From the NCBI RefSeq assembly GCF_003946885.1, contig NZ_RWKQ01000004.1, positions 1 through 45,406 on the forward strand: a stretch of 45,406 nucleotides of DNA. Direction: 5' to 3'. The position numbers and the translations under genes are program-made. This document shows, piece by piece, positions 543 to 45,207 of the stretch. This DNA is from Specibacter cremeus. GTDB taxonomy: Bacteria > Actinomycetota > Actinomycetes > Actinomycetales > Micrococcaceae. Positions within the stretch are counted from its first letter, which is position 1. Each line of letters opens with the position of its first letter. The notes beneath the pieces are model-generated. The model saw only the letters and a program-made list of their open reading frames with translations, was not told where the DNA came from and made no database searches.

Positions 543-2195
543 GTGACCCCAGAAGAACTTTCCGCCGCCATCACCTCCGCCCTCACCGCGTCCGTCGACG
601 CCGGTGAACTCGCCGTTCCCGCCGAGGCCCTGCCGAAGGAAGTTCGGGTCGAGCGACCCAAGAACCGTGAGCACGGCGACTGGGCCACGAACATCGCCCT
701 GCAGCTGGCCAAGCCGGCCGGGGTCCCGCCACGGAAGATCGCCGAGGTGCTCACCGCCCGGCTGGCCGAGATCCCGGGCGTGTCGAGGGTCGAGATCGCC
801 GGTCCCGGCTTCCTGAACATCACCGTCGATGCGGCCGCCGCCGGCGAACTGGCCAAGGCCATCGTCGAGGCCGGCACCGCGTTCGGCAGCAACACGGCCA
901 TGGCCGGCACCAGGATCAACCTGGAGTTCGTCTCCGCCAACCCGACCGGCCCCATCCACCTCGGCGGCACCCGCTGGGCCGCCGTCGGGGACTCGCTGGC
1001 GCGCATCTTCCAGTCCCAGGGCGCCGACGTCACCCGCGAGTACTACTTCAACGACCACGGCATCCAGATCGACCGATTCGCCCGGTCCCTGCTGGCCAGC
1101 GCCAAGGGTGAGCCGGCGCCGGAGGACGGCTACGGCGGCGACTACATCACCGAGATCGCGGATGCGGTCACGGCCGCCCACCCGGACATCCTGGCCGCCG
1201 CGGACCCGCAGGAGGAGTTCCGGTCGCACGGCGTGGAGCTCATGTTCGCCGCCATCAAGGAGTCCCTGCACGAGTTCGGCGTGGACTTCGACGTGTACTT
1301 CCACGAGAACTCGCTGTTCGAGGACGGCGCCGTCGAGAAGCTGCTCGAACAGCTGAAGGGCCTCGGACACCTGTATGCCAAGGACGGCGCCTGGTGGCTG
1401 AAGTCCACCGCGTTCGGAGACGACAAGGACCGTGTCGTCATCAAGTCCGACGGCCACGCGGCCTACATTGCCGGGGACATCGCCTATTTCAAGAACAAGC
1501 GCGACCGCGGCTTCGACCTGTGCATCTACATGCTCGGCGCCGACCACCACGGGTACGTGGCGCGCTTGAAGGCCGCCGCCGACGCCTTGGGTGACGATGC
1601 CGACCGTGTCGAGGTGCTGATCGGCCAGATGGTGAACCTGGTCAAGGACGGGGTCCCCCTCCGCATGTCCAAGCGCGCCGGCACGGTCGTCACCATGGAG
1701 GACTTGGTCGACGTGGTCGGCACGGACGCCGCCCGGTACTCGCTGGCCCGTTTCTCGTCTGACTCGAACATCGACATCGACCTGGACGTGCTGACGAAGC
1801 GTTCCAATGAGAACCCGGTGTTCTACGTCCAGTACGCGCACGCCCGCACCTGCGCCGTGGCCCGCAACGCCGCGGCGACAGGTGTCGAGCGCACCGCATT
1901 CGACGCCGCGGCCCTGACGCACGCCACCGAATCGGAACTACTGGCCGTCCTGGGCCAGTACCCGGGCGTGCTCGCCCAGGCGGCCGCCTACCGCGAACCG
2001 CACCGCGTGGCCCGCCACCTCGAGGTCATCGCCGGGGCGTACCACCGGTGGTACGACGTCTGCCGCGTCACGCCCCTGGGCGACGAACCGGTCACGGACG
2101 TCAACCGCACCCGCCTGTGGCTCAACGACGCCACCTCCCAGGTGCTCGCGAACGGCCTGGGCCTGCTGGGCGTCACGGCCCCGGAACGGATGTGA
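543..2195 (+). CDS. argS: arginyl-tRNA synthetase
   Basis: This class I aminoacyl-tRNA synthetase attaches arginine to tRNA-Arg in the cytoplasm. The 550-residue length is normal. Residues 1-90 form the Add-1 (Arg_tRNA_synt_N) domain. The HIGH signature appears as HLGG at 139-142 after NPTGPI. The KMSK loop appears as RMSK at 374-377. The C-terminal DALR anticodon-binding domain ends in the typical [10 protein letters not shown]. The GTG start at 543 directly follows a -10-like box and fits the usual N-terminus. The gene leads the argS-lysA-hom-thrC-thrB cluster; its stop overlaps the probable lysA start (GTGA, 2192-2195), so translation is probably coupled. Linkage of argS with lysA is a long-known actinobacterial arrangement. 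Confidence 0.97.
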
Positions 2196-3826
2196 CCGTG
2201 GACGGCGCGGAGCTGGCCCCCGCCTGGCTGCCGGTCCCCGGCGACCTCAACGCGCTGACGCCGGCGATGTGGGCCCGGGACGTTGCGAGGAACGACGACG
2301 GCGGTCTCGCCGTGGGCGGGACCGGCGTGGAATCCCTCAAGGAGCAGTTCGGCACGCCGCTGTTCGTGCTCAGCGAGACCGACTTCCGCGCCCGCGCCCG
2401 CCTGTTCAAGGAGTCCTTCGACGAGGCGTTCGCCCAGCTGTGTGGCGGCGTGGACGTGTACTATGCCGGCAAGTCGTTCCTGTGCACCGAGGTGGCGCGC
2501 TGGGTCGAATCCGAGGGCCTGCGGCTGGACACCTGTTCCGGCGGCGAACTGGCCGTCGCCGCCCGGGCCGGGCTGCCGGGGGAGAAGCTGGGACTGCACG
2601 GCAACAACAAGTCCGACGCCGAGATCGGCCGCGCGCTCGACATGCGGCTGGGCCGCATCGTCGTCGACAGCCTGCACGAGCTCGCCCGGGTGGCCGCGAT
2701 TGCCGCACGCCGCGGCGAGGTGGCCAGGGTCATGCTGCGGCTGACCCCGGGCGTGCACGCGCATACGCACGAATTCATCGCCACCGCGCACGAGGACCAG
2801 AAGTTCGGCCTGTCCATGGTTTCGACAACCGGTGATCGAGCCTGTCGAGATCAGGTTTCGACAGGCTCAACCACCGGTGATCGAGCTTGTCGAGATCAGG
2901 TTTCGACAGGCTCAACCACCGGTGATCGAGCTTGTCGAGATCAGGTTTCGACAAGCTCAACCACCGGTGATCGAGCTTGTCGAGATCAGGTTTCGACAGG
3001 CTCAACCACCGGGGTTTCGACAGGCTCAACCACCGAAATGAGCGCCGCGGAGGCCGCCGTTGTCGCGGCCAAGGACGCGGACAGCATCGAGCTGCTCGGC
3101 TTCCATGCCCACATCGGCTCGCAGATCTTCGAACCCGACGGCTTCGAGATGGCCGCGCGCAGGCTGCTCACGTTCACCGACGCGATGCAGCGCAAGTACG
3201 GCATCACACTGCCCGAGCTGGACCTCGGCGGCGGCTACGGCATCGCCTACACGGCCGCCGACACGCCGCGACCGACGGCCGACATCGCCAAGGCGATGGC
3301 CGCCGTCGTCCGCGAGACCTGCGACGAGCTGGGACTGGCCTGCCCGCGCATCTCCATCGAACCGGGCCGCGCCATCGCCGGCCCCTCGACGTTCACGTTG
3401 TACGAGACCGGCACGCTGAAGACCGTCCAGGTCGACGTTCCCGGCGGCGACGGACGGACCGCCCCGCGCCGCTACGTGTCGGTCGACGGCGGCATGAGCG
3501 ACAACGCCCGGCCCGTGCTGTACGACGCCGATTACTCGGCCGTGCTGGCCAACCGTTCCTCCGATGCCCCGCCCGTGCTGTCCCGAGTGGTGGGCAAACA
3601 TTGCGAGAGCGGCGACATTGTTGTTAGAGATGTATATCTGCCCAGTGACGTGGCCGCCGGCGATCTGCTCGCGGTCCCCGGTACGGGCGCGTACTGCTGG
3701 GCACTGGCCAGCAACTACAACTATGTGCCCCGGCCGCCCGTGGTCGCCGTCAAGGACGGCGCCGCGCGGCTGATCGTGCGGGGCGAGACCGAAGACGACC
3801 TGCTGGCACGCGACTTAGGGGCCTGA
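2192..3826 (+). CDS. lysA: diaminopimelate decarboxylase with an in-frame repeat insertion
   Basis: This PLP enzyme decarboxylates meso-diaminopimelate to L-lysine, the last step of lysine synthesis. It belongs to the fold-III group IV decarboxylases. The PLP lysine is K94 in YYAGKSF. The phosphate-binding glycine loop GGGYG is at 346-350, EPGR starts at 390, and the active-site cysteine of the partner subunit is C471 in CESGD. The protein is 544 residues long. The excess over the usual 420-475 comes from residues 210-282, encoded by a tandem repeat array (2819-3037) inserted between KFGLS and the HAHIGSQIF strand without breaking the frame. The start is taken as GTG 2192, which overlaps the argS stop by 4 bp; GTG 2198 is the alternative. 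All catalytic motifs are intact on both sides of the insert, so the enzyme may still work, but this is inferred. Confidence 0.95.
2819..3037 (+). repeat. palindromic 45-bp tandem repeat array inside lysA
   Basis: Four 45-bp units start at 2831, 2876, 2921 and 2966. A truncated copy precedes them (2819-2830) and two partial copies follow (2990-3037). Each unit carries GAGCYTGTCGA, a 9-nt spacer and TCGACARGCTC, which is an 11-bp hairpin stem. The first and third units pair perfectly through matching C/G or T/A changes; the second and fourth have one G-T wobble. Total length is 219 bp, or 73 codons. The period is divisible by three and encodes a 15-residue peptide repeat ([15 protein letters not shown]). 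The unit is free of stops in three of six frames. It belongs to the same family as 22461-22545 and 45121-45207. Confidence 0.93.
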
Positions 3827-3830
3827 CACC

Positions 3831-5212
3831 TTGACCGAGCACACCATCGCCACGGAATCCGTGGCCGACACCGTGGCGCCCTCCGCCGCGAAAACACTGA
3901 AGGTCGCCCTGCTGGGCGCCGGGAACGTGGGCGCCGAGGTGGCCCGGATCCTGCTCACCGACGCCGACGCGCTGGCCGAGCGCACCGGGGCGCGGCTGGA
4001 ACTGGCCGGCATCGCCGTGCGGAGCATCGACGCGCCGCGCACGTTCCCGCTGCCGCGCGAGCTGTTCACCACGGACGCCTCGGCGCTGGTGCGCGGCGCC
4101 GACATCGTGATCGAGCTGATGGGCGGGATCGAACCGGCCCGCACACTCATCCTGGAGGCCATCGAGCACGGCGCCACCGTCGTCACCGGCAACAAGGCGC
4201 TGCTGGCCGTGGACGGACCCAGCCTGTACGAGAAGGCCGACGCCGCCGGCGTCCAGCTCTCCTACGAGGCCGCGGTGGCCGGTGCCATCCCGATCCTTCG
4301 CCCCATCCGCGACTCGCTGGCCGGGGACAAGATCACCCGCGTCATGGGCATCGTGAACGGCACCACGAACTACATCCTCGACCAGATGGACACCACGGGT
4401 GCACAATTCGCCGACGCGCTGGCCGAGGCGCAGCGCCTGGGCTACGCGGAGGCCGATCCCACCGCCGACATCGAGGGACACGACGCCGCCGCCAAGGGCG
4501 CCATCCTCGCCTCGCTGTCGTTCCACACCCGGTTCGCGCTCGAGGACGTGCACTGCCAGGGCATCACGTCCATCACGGCGAACGACATCGCCGCCGCCAG
4601 GGAGGCCGGCTACGTCATCAAGCTGCTCGCCATCGCCGAGAAGATCGATGGCATGGACGACGACGGCACGGAAACCTCGGGCGTGAGCGTGCGCGTCCAC
4701 CCGACGCTGCTGCCCCGCGATCACCCGCTCGGCGCGGTGCACGGTGCTTTCAACGCCGTGTTCGTGGAAGCCGAGAACGCCGGCCAGCTCATGTTCTACG
4801 GCCAAGGCGCCGGTGGCGCGCCGACCGCGTCGGCCGTGCTCGGCGATGTCGTCTCCGCCGCCCGCCGCCTCGTCCTGGGCGGGCCGGGCCGCACCGAGAC
4901 CACCACCGGACGGTTGCCGGTGCTGGGCATCGACGCGGTCACCACGCGCTACTACATCGGCATGGACGCGGCGGACCAGCCCGGCGTGCTGTCCAAGATT
5001 TCCGCGCTGTTCGCCGAGCATGGCGTCTCGATCGAGACCATGCGCCAGACCGTGCACACCGAGCCGGGCGATGGCGAATCAGCCGGCTCGGCCGAGCTGC
5101 GCATCGTCACGCACCGTGCCGGCGAGGCCGCCCTGGCGGCCACCGTCAAGGCGATCGAGGGCCTTGACGTCATCAATTCCGTAACCAGTGTCCTGAGGGT
5201 GGAGGGAGTCTA

Positions 5213-22460: not shown

Positions 22461-22545
22461 GTGGGTTGAGCTTGTCGCTGGTTGAGCTTGTCGAAACCTA
22501 AGGTTTCGACAAGCTCAACCAGCGGTTTCGACAGGCTCAACCACC
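22461..22545 (+). repeat. palindromic repeat array between atpA and atpG
   Basis: A short copy (GGTTGAGCTTGTCGCT, 22464-22479) is followed by a perfect inverted repeat. Its left arm 22477-22499 and right arm 22501-22523 are 23 bp each, separated by a single A. A further copy, GGTTTCGACAGGCTCAACCA, follows at 22524-22543. It belongs to the same family as the lysA insert. It fills nearly all of the 112-bp atpA-atpG gap and begins 4 nt after the atpA stop. The atpG ribosome binding site (AGGAAAGGA) lies just after it. Confidence 0.93.
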
Positions 22546-22568
22546 GGGATTCCTAGGAAAGGAAAAGT

Positions 22569-45117: not shown

Positions 45118-45120
45118 CCG

Positions 45121-45207
45121 GTGGGTCGAGCCTGTCGGTGGTCGAGCCTGTCGAGACCCCGCTGGTCGCGCCGGTCGAGACCCCGCTGGTCGAGCCTGTC
45201 GAGACCC
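45121..45207 (+). repeat. 24-bp tandem array of the palindromic repeat family
   Basis: A short copy (GGTCGAGCCTGTCGGT, 45124-45139) is followed by three 24-bp units starting at 45140, 45164 and 45188, based on GGTCGAGCCTGTCGAGACCC. The middle unit has two changes. The first 38 nt align with 22461-22498. The array begins 3 nt after the helicase stop. All copies point the same way, so no long hairpin forms, unlike the atp locus. Confidence 0.88.

Follow-up and report, generated by a model that had tools for sequence, protein, structure and literature searches.

A palindromic repeat array lies in frame within lysA

We analysed a 45,406-nucleotide stretch of DNA (the window) in which a diaminopimelate decarboxylase gene, lysA, lies between two genes that we take, from their protein sequence, to be argS and hom, in the order argS–lysA–hom (Table 1). 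The score of its product against TIGR01048, the NCBIfam lysA model (406 bits; cut-off 298), and its conserved residues place it in the LysA family: in an alignment with 39 other LysA proteins, all 103 invariant columns are preserved. LysA motifs are kept on both flanks of the array, as a preliminary description of this DNA had claimed; the residue that we presume to be the PLP lysine is K92 in GTG-start numbering, and had earlier been given as K94.

Table 1 Features of the window
Feature	Position	Strand	Details	Basis
lysA, diaminopimelate decarboxylase	2198..3826	+	542 aa; GTG start	flanked by argS and hom
In-frame insert	2819..3037	+	219 bp = 73 codons, residues 208–280; stop-free	absent from 22/22 genus relatives
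First core, 9 nt shorter	2818..2832	+	GGTTTCGACA-ACCGG	direct reading of sequence
45-bp tandem unit, 4.1 copies	2828..3012	+	unit = inverted GATC-type core + direct GGTT-type core	TRF
Inverted core 1	2829..2852	-	GATC stem type	sequence, frames
Further inverted cores	2874–2897, 2919–2942, 2964–2987	-		sequence, frames
Direct core 1	2854..2877	+	GGTT stem type	motif matches
Further direct cores	2899–2922, 2944–2967, 2989–3012	+		motif matches
Extra direct core	3013..3036	+	24 bp past the preceding one	TRF, motif matches
Three-core cluster	22475..22547	.	same family; between two co-directional genes	motif matches
Cluster	45119..45207	.	same family; directly after a TAG triplet	TRF, motif matches

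Our analysis confirmed that a repeat array lies in frame inside this gene. It begins with a truncated core, continues with four 45-bp pairs, each of an inverted and a direct core, and ends with a final direct core. TRF scored 97% matches among the 45-bp units and reported an additional 24-bp pair at 2989–3035. Within the window, the core was matched ten times at up to three mismatches, against none in 100 dinucleotide shuffles. The 45 bp that had been taken for the repeat unit hold as a period, but the basic unit is a core of 24 bp, GRTYTCGACARGCTCRAYCACCGG, with a covarying outer 4-bp stem, and 45 bp is the length of an inverted pair. A frame check bore out two further claims, that the 45-bp unit is free of stops in three of six frames and that 45-bp steps preserve the reading frame. 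Frame preservation, together with the strong folding of the insert RNA (−135 kcal/mol, z −14), would suit a regulatory or phase-variation device, acting either as an mRNA hairpin or through a loop length that tunes enzyme activity; given the single strain available and the lack of the array in relatives, we regard such a role as highly improbable.

The insert occupies a length-variable loop

lysA is present in all 23 genomes of the genus, and the array is missing from all 22 relatives of the window's genome (G000): 21 of their loops were read directly, and that of G006 was taken to be empty because its two matches lie 15 nt apart. A comparison with relatives had been put forward as a check, and among these genomes only the window's has the array. 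The loop is short in the 21 relatives that were read, at 9–10 residues (for example, FIAEDPEAPGMSAAEAA). Because these relatives have a native segment there, the 73 codons said to have been added to LysA (at residues 210–282 in the earlier numbering) are correct as an insert length, and the net gain is only about 63 residues, with the native loop replaced. Resemblances to the element in LysA of G022 and G005 were not counted, as both have 6 mismatches of 19 and that in G022 covers 13 nt only.

Across actinobacteria, the segment from DQKFG to HIGS ranges from 31 to 144 residues (79 of 80 named loci were readable). The insert therefore sits at a naturally length-variable loop, in keeping with the preliminary description. 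By eye, the repeat peptide occurs in none of the 79 readable loops, and we rejected the idea that the segment is ancestral across the family. Bifidobacterial LysA proteins (L066, L073, L081, L090 and L095–L098) have loops of 99–144 residues at the site of the array, without the element peptide.

The coding sequence on either side of the insert looks constrained. Compared with G005, differences at codon positions 1/2/3 number 16/12/55 over 160 codons on one flank and 13/10/34 over 90 codons on the other; against eight relatives (G007 dropped), third-position changes exceed those at first and second positions about two- to fivefold. A LysA tree places this genome on a long branch (0.3), as sister to 20 of the relatives. 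The lysA gene of G001 (L030) was split over two reading frames in our search, which points to a frameshift or a sequencing error.

G000 also carries a full-length LysA paralogue on contig C10 (positions 1333–2547; 38% identity; 371 bits against the cut-off of 298), and the only extra lysA-family match in the 22 other genomes of the genus, in G012, is weak. Because of this paralogue, essentiality cannot be claimed for the window lysA, contrary to the preliminary description, which had itself named a second intact lysA elsewhere as evidence against its reading; a gene of that kind exists, in part, as this diverged family member. The paralogue may relieve selection on the window lysA, which could then be dispensable or decaying, its insert tolerated for lack of selection, and the long branch fits this explanation as well. 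We consider it unlikely, however, because the lysA frame is intact, the invariant columns are all retained, third positions are in excess, and inserts are also found in RecG, Mfd and MenD, with no second high-identity copy among the matches listed in this genome.

The array belongs to a high-copy palindromic family

Allowing up to 2 mismatches, the core in the form GGTTTCGACARGCTCAACCACCGG matches the genome 340 times; a wider form, allowing up to 1 mismatch, matches it 414 times; the control gave 0 for each. A chance motif was rejected: at up to 3 mismatches in the sampled DNA, the real pattern gave 408 matches (one cluster counted twice), and the reversed and four shuffled patterns gave none. 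The element is present in 16 of the 23 genus genomes and absent from 7, with 144 copies in G016 and 103 in G011, which is Arthrobacter sp. ERGS1:01. In an order-wide sample, which included one other genome of the genus, 11 of 297 genomes carried it, the second highest with 29 copies. Searches of a plasmid collection found it in one record, from Arthrobacter sp. ERGS1:01 (754,192 bp), and a phage collection gave no match; both collections may omit records close to the window's genome.

A census of 470 cores, for which the inner 11 nt alone served as the seed, characterized the outer stem. Positions 2 and 18 and positions 4 and 16 of the core covary, since 349 of the 470 carry a perfect outer stem of one of four kinds (GGTC/GACC, 145; GGTT/AACC, 89; GATT/AATC, 73; GATC/GATC, 42). 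Of 166 pairs of inverted neighbours, 131 have different bases at both variable stem positions, and among direct neighbours 76 of 89 pairs agree; the alternation between inverted neighbours is weak in G011 (6/12) and absent in G016 (1/7). A single core folds no better than its shuffles, and inverted pairs reach about −22 to −39 kcal/mol, so that inverted neighbouring cores would form strong hairpins. Three other possibilities were set aside. Strand-specific selection on the RNA is not reflected in any asymmetry of mismatches in tandem clusters (130 G–U versus 141 A–C). A perfect-palindrome model was rejected for G000, as adjacent inverted arms are alike at 14.5 of 19 positions against a shuffled mean of 15.9. 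Rfam returned nothing at the gathering score for window positions 2000–4000, and the sub-threshold hits there were generic hairpins, not a known RNA family.

Sampled intergenic copies lie mostly 3' of stop codons

We determined the location of copies in the window and 80 stretches picked around listed copies, a large but incomplete sample that by its design favours copies; for a recount, L142, which is part of the window again, was excluded, leaving 79 non-overlapping stretches and the window. Genes were called with our own simple codon-score caller, and two were compared with public annotation. Among 123 clusters, 50 lay between convergent genes, 48 between tandem genes and 3 between divergent genes, with 19 inside genes and 3 at an edge. 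The same DNA has 57 convergent, 149 tandem and 58 divergent gaps of at least 40 bp (chi-square p ~1e-8), and 85% of it was called as coding.

The sampled intergenic copies are found almost only 3' of stop codons. A stop codon is found at most 30 bp away from 46 of the 50 convergent clusters; for the tandem clusters, 39 of 48 lie within that distance of the upstream stop and 9 of 48 within that distance of the downstream start. Most sampled copies, a few bases beyond stops, probably act as transcript-end hairpins. In the window itself, the genes flanking the cluster at 22475–22547 are, we presume from their protein sequence, atpA and atpG, for the ATP synthase alpha and gamma subunits.

In-frame copies recur in other genes

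In G000, internal in-frame copies occur in LysA, a RecG-type helicase (899 bits with the best model, below its cut-off of 995), Mfd (at two sites, in a gene cut by the edge of the sampled stretch), MenD, an E2 acyltransferase, SucB, an HsdM-type methylase, a TM0106-type nuclease/helicase, a GH38 mannosidase, a tricorn-type protease and a RhaD-type aldolase. In-frame copies near the ends of genes were found in a thiolase, SfnG, a Gfo/Idh-type dehydrogenase (C-terminal) and CysD (N-terminal), and two further single copies lie in one L182 gene. When ten internal sites were compared with Pfam, five fell between two matched domains (E2, RecG, TM0106, GH38 and MenD), those of tricorn and SucB fell outside any match, Mfd site 1 was at the edge of a match, and HsdM and Mfd site 2 were inside one. 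Six clusters in five stretches (L126, L148, L191 with two, L197 and L199) were inspected by eye for gene disruption; none looks broken, and three of these five possible split-gene stretches hold in-frame C-terminal tails. The palindrome that the preliminary description regarded as coding-tolerant thus lies in frame well beyond lysA, in other genes and in other species.

Reading frames are strongly biased. Across 16 gene copies in G000, cores with up to 5 mismatches are read in frame F1 24 times, R0 22, R2 10, F0 2 and F2 or R1 never; the wider consensus gives F1 20, R0 17, R2 10, F0 2 and R1 2. The corresponding peptides are VSTGSTT (F1), PVVEPVET (R0) and GDRACRD (R2), with R2 tied to F1 by the 45-bp spacing. 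Genic clusters make up 8 of 29 in G011 and 5 of 26 in G016 (20 stretches each), with frames R0 17 and F1 1 in the former and R0 8, F1 3, F2 1 and R1 1 in the latter. Over the three genomes sampled, this amounts to R0 42, F1 24, R2 10, R1 3, F0 2 and F2 1, totals that cannot be treated as independent, since cores in tandem have the same frame; the N-terminal genic copies (CysD in G000 and 4 of 13 in G011 and G016) may precede the true start. All 27 genic spacings between cores of the same orientation are divisible by three, versus 55 of 117 intergenic ones (Fisher p ~3e-8), although in G011 alone the intergenic spacing is mostly a multiple of three too (13/15).

Several element-bearing genes have counterparts. 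RhaD-type aldolase genes at the starts of contigs C16 and C18 (L128:1–1020 and L129:1–828) have the in-frame element at an identical position; 26 of 828 bases differ between them, the element accounting for 3, which suggests either a duplication or unresolved assembly. A gene found in both G000 and G011 (L191 and L302), presumably encoding CoA-transferase subunit A, ends in an in-frame VVEPVE tail. Gfo/Idh-type oxidoreductases of the same two genomes (L151 and L296) have similar C-terminal ends with element-derived tails.

The same protein loops carry the element in different species

We compared the RecG, MenD and Mfd loops of G000 with those of its relatives. Among 22 relatives, the RecG loop contains the core at 0–1 mismatch of 19 in G001 and G022 and at 2–3 in G002 and G011; the MenD loop contains it at 0–1 mismatch of 19 in 8 of 21. 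Judged against up to 200 same-length windows per locus, 11 of these 12 matches had no equal, and for MenD of G002 2.7% of windows were as good. In Mfd, again among 22 relatives, the core is matched without mismatch and in frame F1 at site 1 in G016 and G011, and at site 2 in G016, G008 and G022; at all these loops, the remaining relatives are empty or too diverged to judge. The presence of the core in the MenD, RecG and Mfd loops of other species means that certain loops have been hit repeatedly, and the patchiness over species implies repeated gain, loss or both.

When filled Mfd sites are set beside empty ones, the junctions look like replacements, with net gains of 3 and 6 residues as against the 8 of a whole core, and no target-site duplication was found at them. 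The hexamer CACCGG is common to the element and the empty Mfd site in G001, which hints at microhomology.

These comparisons bear on whether the lysA array could be an assembly artefact, that is, a dispersed repeat mis-joined into lysA or assembled with the wrong copy number. The genome is in 98 contigs, two of which (C16 and C18) begin inside an element-bearing gene, which speaks for an artefact. The lysA array, by contrast, runs unbroken and in frame within a 129-kb contig, with both halves of lysA in order. In the ERGS1:01 record, which is described as complete, two arrays lie in frame inside annotated coding sequences, for an ABC transporter ATP-binding protein and a Gfo/Idh/MocA oxidoreductase, whose limits equal our own calls, and the matching loop sites are filled in several independent assemblies. 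We therefore regard an artefact as highly improbable.

Origin and significance of the insert

We think it likely that an orphan family of REP/BIME-like repeats, expanded in this Arthrobacter-group genome, supplied the in-frame copy seen in lysA, and that the array is linker-like and tolerated. Some copies of the family have ended up in protein loops and linkers. They could survive in genes and persist in proteins because core and pair, at 24 and 45 bp, each divide into whole codons and are open in most frames, and because the two main frames give flexible, linker-like peptides that would be made and tolerated inside proteins. In lysA, an element copy probably replaced the 9–10-residue loop; the array would then have grown in 45-bp steps by unequal recombination or slippage, as the 97% match between units suggests.

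An ordinary REP or MITE mobilized by an IS200/RAYT enzyme, with the transposase outside the assembly or since lost, would account for the REP-like anatomy and 3' location, which fit REPs as described in PMC3733652. A search for Y1/RAYT transposases (PF01797), however, gave no match in G000, G011 or G016 (5 of 14 in the control), and the two of 23 genus genomes that do have PF01797 carry 0 and 3 copies of the element. The ends also lack a GTAG or CGTC tag, and the Mfd junctions lack a target-site duplication. We hold this origin to be possible, if doubtful.

Alongside the REP/BIME-like reading, we tentatively propose that the coding properties of the family themselves help it to persist. With an eight-codon core, a fifteen-codon pair and almost no stops, it would be a frame-neutral REP, a mobile linker cassette that has repeatedly remodelled the same housekeeping loops (Mfd, RecG and MenD, and here LysA and E2).

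In the sources we consulted, Rickettsia and scattered intragenic REPs have been the basis for asking whether selfish palindromes contribute to protein evolution. The present family can be traced across 23 genomes of a soil-bacterium group, in conserved genes whose sites are filled in some genomes and empty in others. With intact frames, a clear frame bias and recurring loops, it becomes possible to study by direct experiment how such DNA enters proteins and if the added peptide is useful or simply neutral. Element-derived loops could also pass for conserved protein motifs, which calls for caution.

Comparison with known repeat families

In the broad sense, the family is a REP/BIME-type repeat: a high-copy dispersed palindrome located 3' of genes. 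Escherichia coli BIMEs are built of alternating Y and Z REPs. The family resembles them in that inverted neighbours mostly differ in stem type and direct neighbours mostly agree; it differs in that the alternation is strong in G000 only and that no RAYT was found by the Y1 search.

The REPs of the GTAG and CGTC groups, as described in PMC3733652, lie mostly between convergent or co-directional genes near 3' ends. Some are inside open reading frames, many of them DNA synthesis or repair genes, where clusters encode 43–82 amino acids, possibly in flexible linkers or loops (PMC3733652). Our family is likewise made of short dispersed palindromes with a 3' location and some copies in open reading frames. 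It lacks the marks of both superfamilies: GTAG is missing from the consensus and from both strands of the core, and no Y1 transposase was found in G000, G011 or G016; CGTC is missing from the ends of the consensus, and the stem is 4 bp rather than the 8–9 bp of CGTC REPs. Compared with the REPs of that source, whose main text makes no mention of Arthrobacter or Actinobacteria, it has a covarying outer stem, an actinobacterial host and a strong bias to two frames, and it sits in the same Mfd, MenD and RecG loops of several species within a genus.

Rickettsia palindromic elements, of about 150 bp (PMC10969869, PMC3733652), had been suggested as the closest parallel. The likeness holds, as both are palindromes in frame in unrelated proteins with a conserved encoded peptide, which here is predicted for 16 gene copies in G000; on the account in PMC3733652, intragenic GTAG/CGTC REPs are a closer parallel than these elements on their own. 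Going by their description, the Rickettsia elements differ from our 24-bp core, with its 45-bp pairs and its hundreds of copies, mostly intergenic in our sample. Nematomorpha mitochondria carry long perfect inverted repeats in coding sequence (PMC6649704); both cases involve coding sequence, there in organelle genes and here in a dispersed bacterial family.

None of six core sequences and four peptides matched in print in the literature searched, and no comparable actinobacterial family stood out in the titles and abstract openings of papers on REPs, BIMEs or palindromes in actinobacteria or in genes. Palindromic repeats inside genes are a kind already known, from intragenic REPs and Rickettsia palindromic elements (PMC3733652, PMC10969869). 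What sets this family apart is that it combines an eight-codon core and a two-frame bias with the absence of GTAG/CGTC tags and, in the Y1 search of G000, G011 and G016, of RAYT, and that the same protein loops are used repeatedly within a genus.
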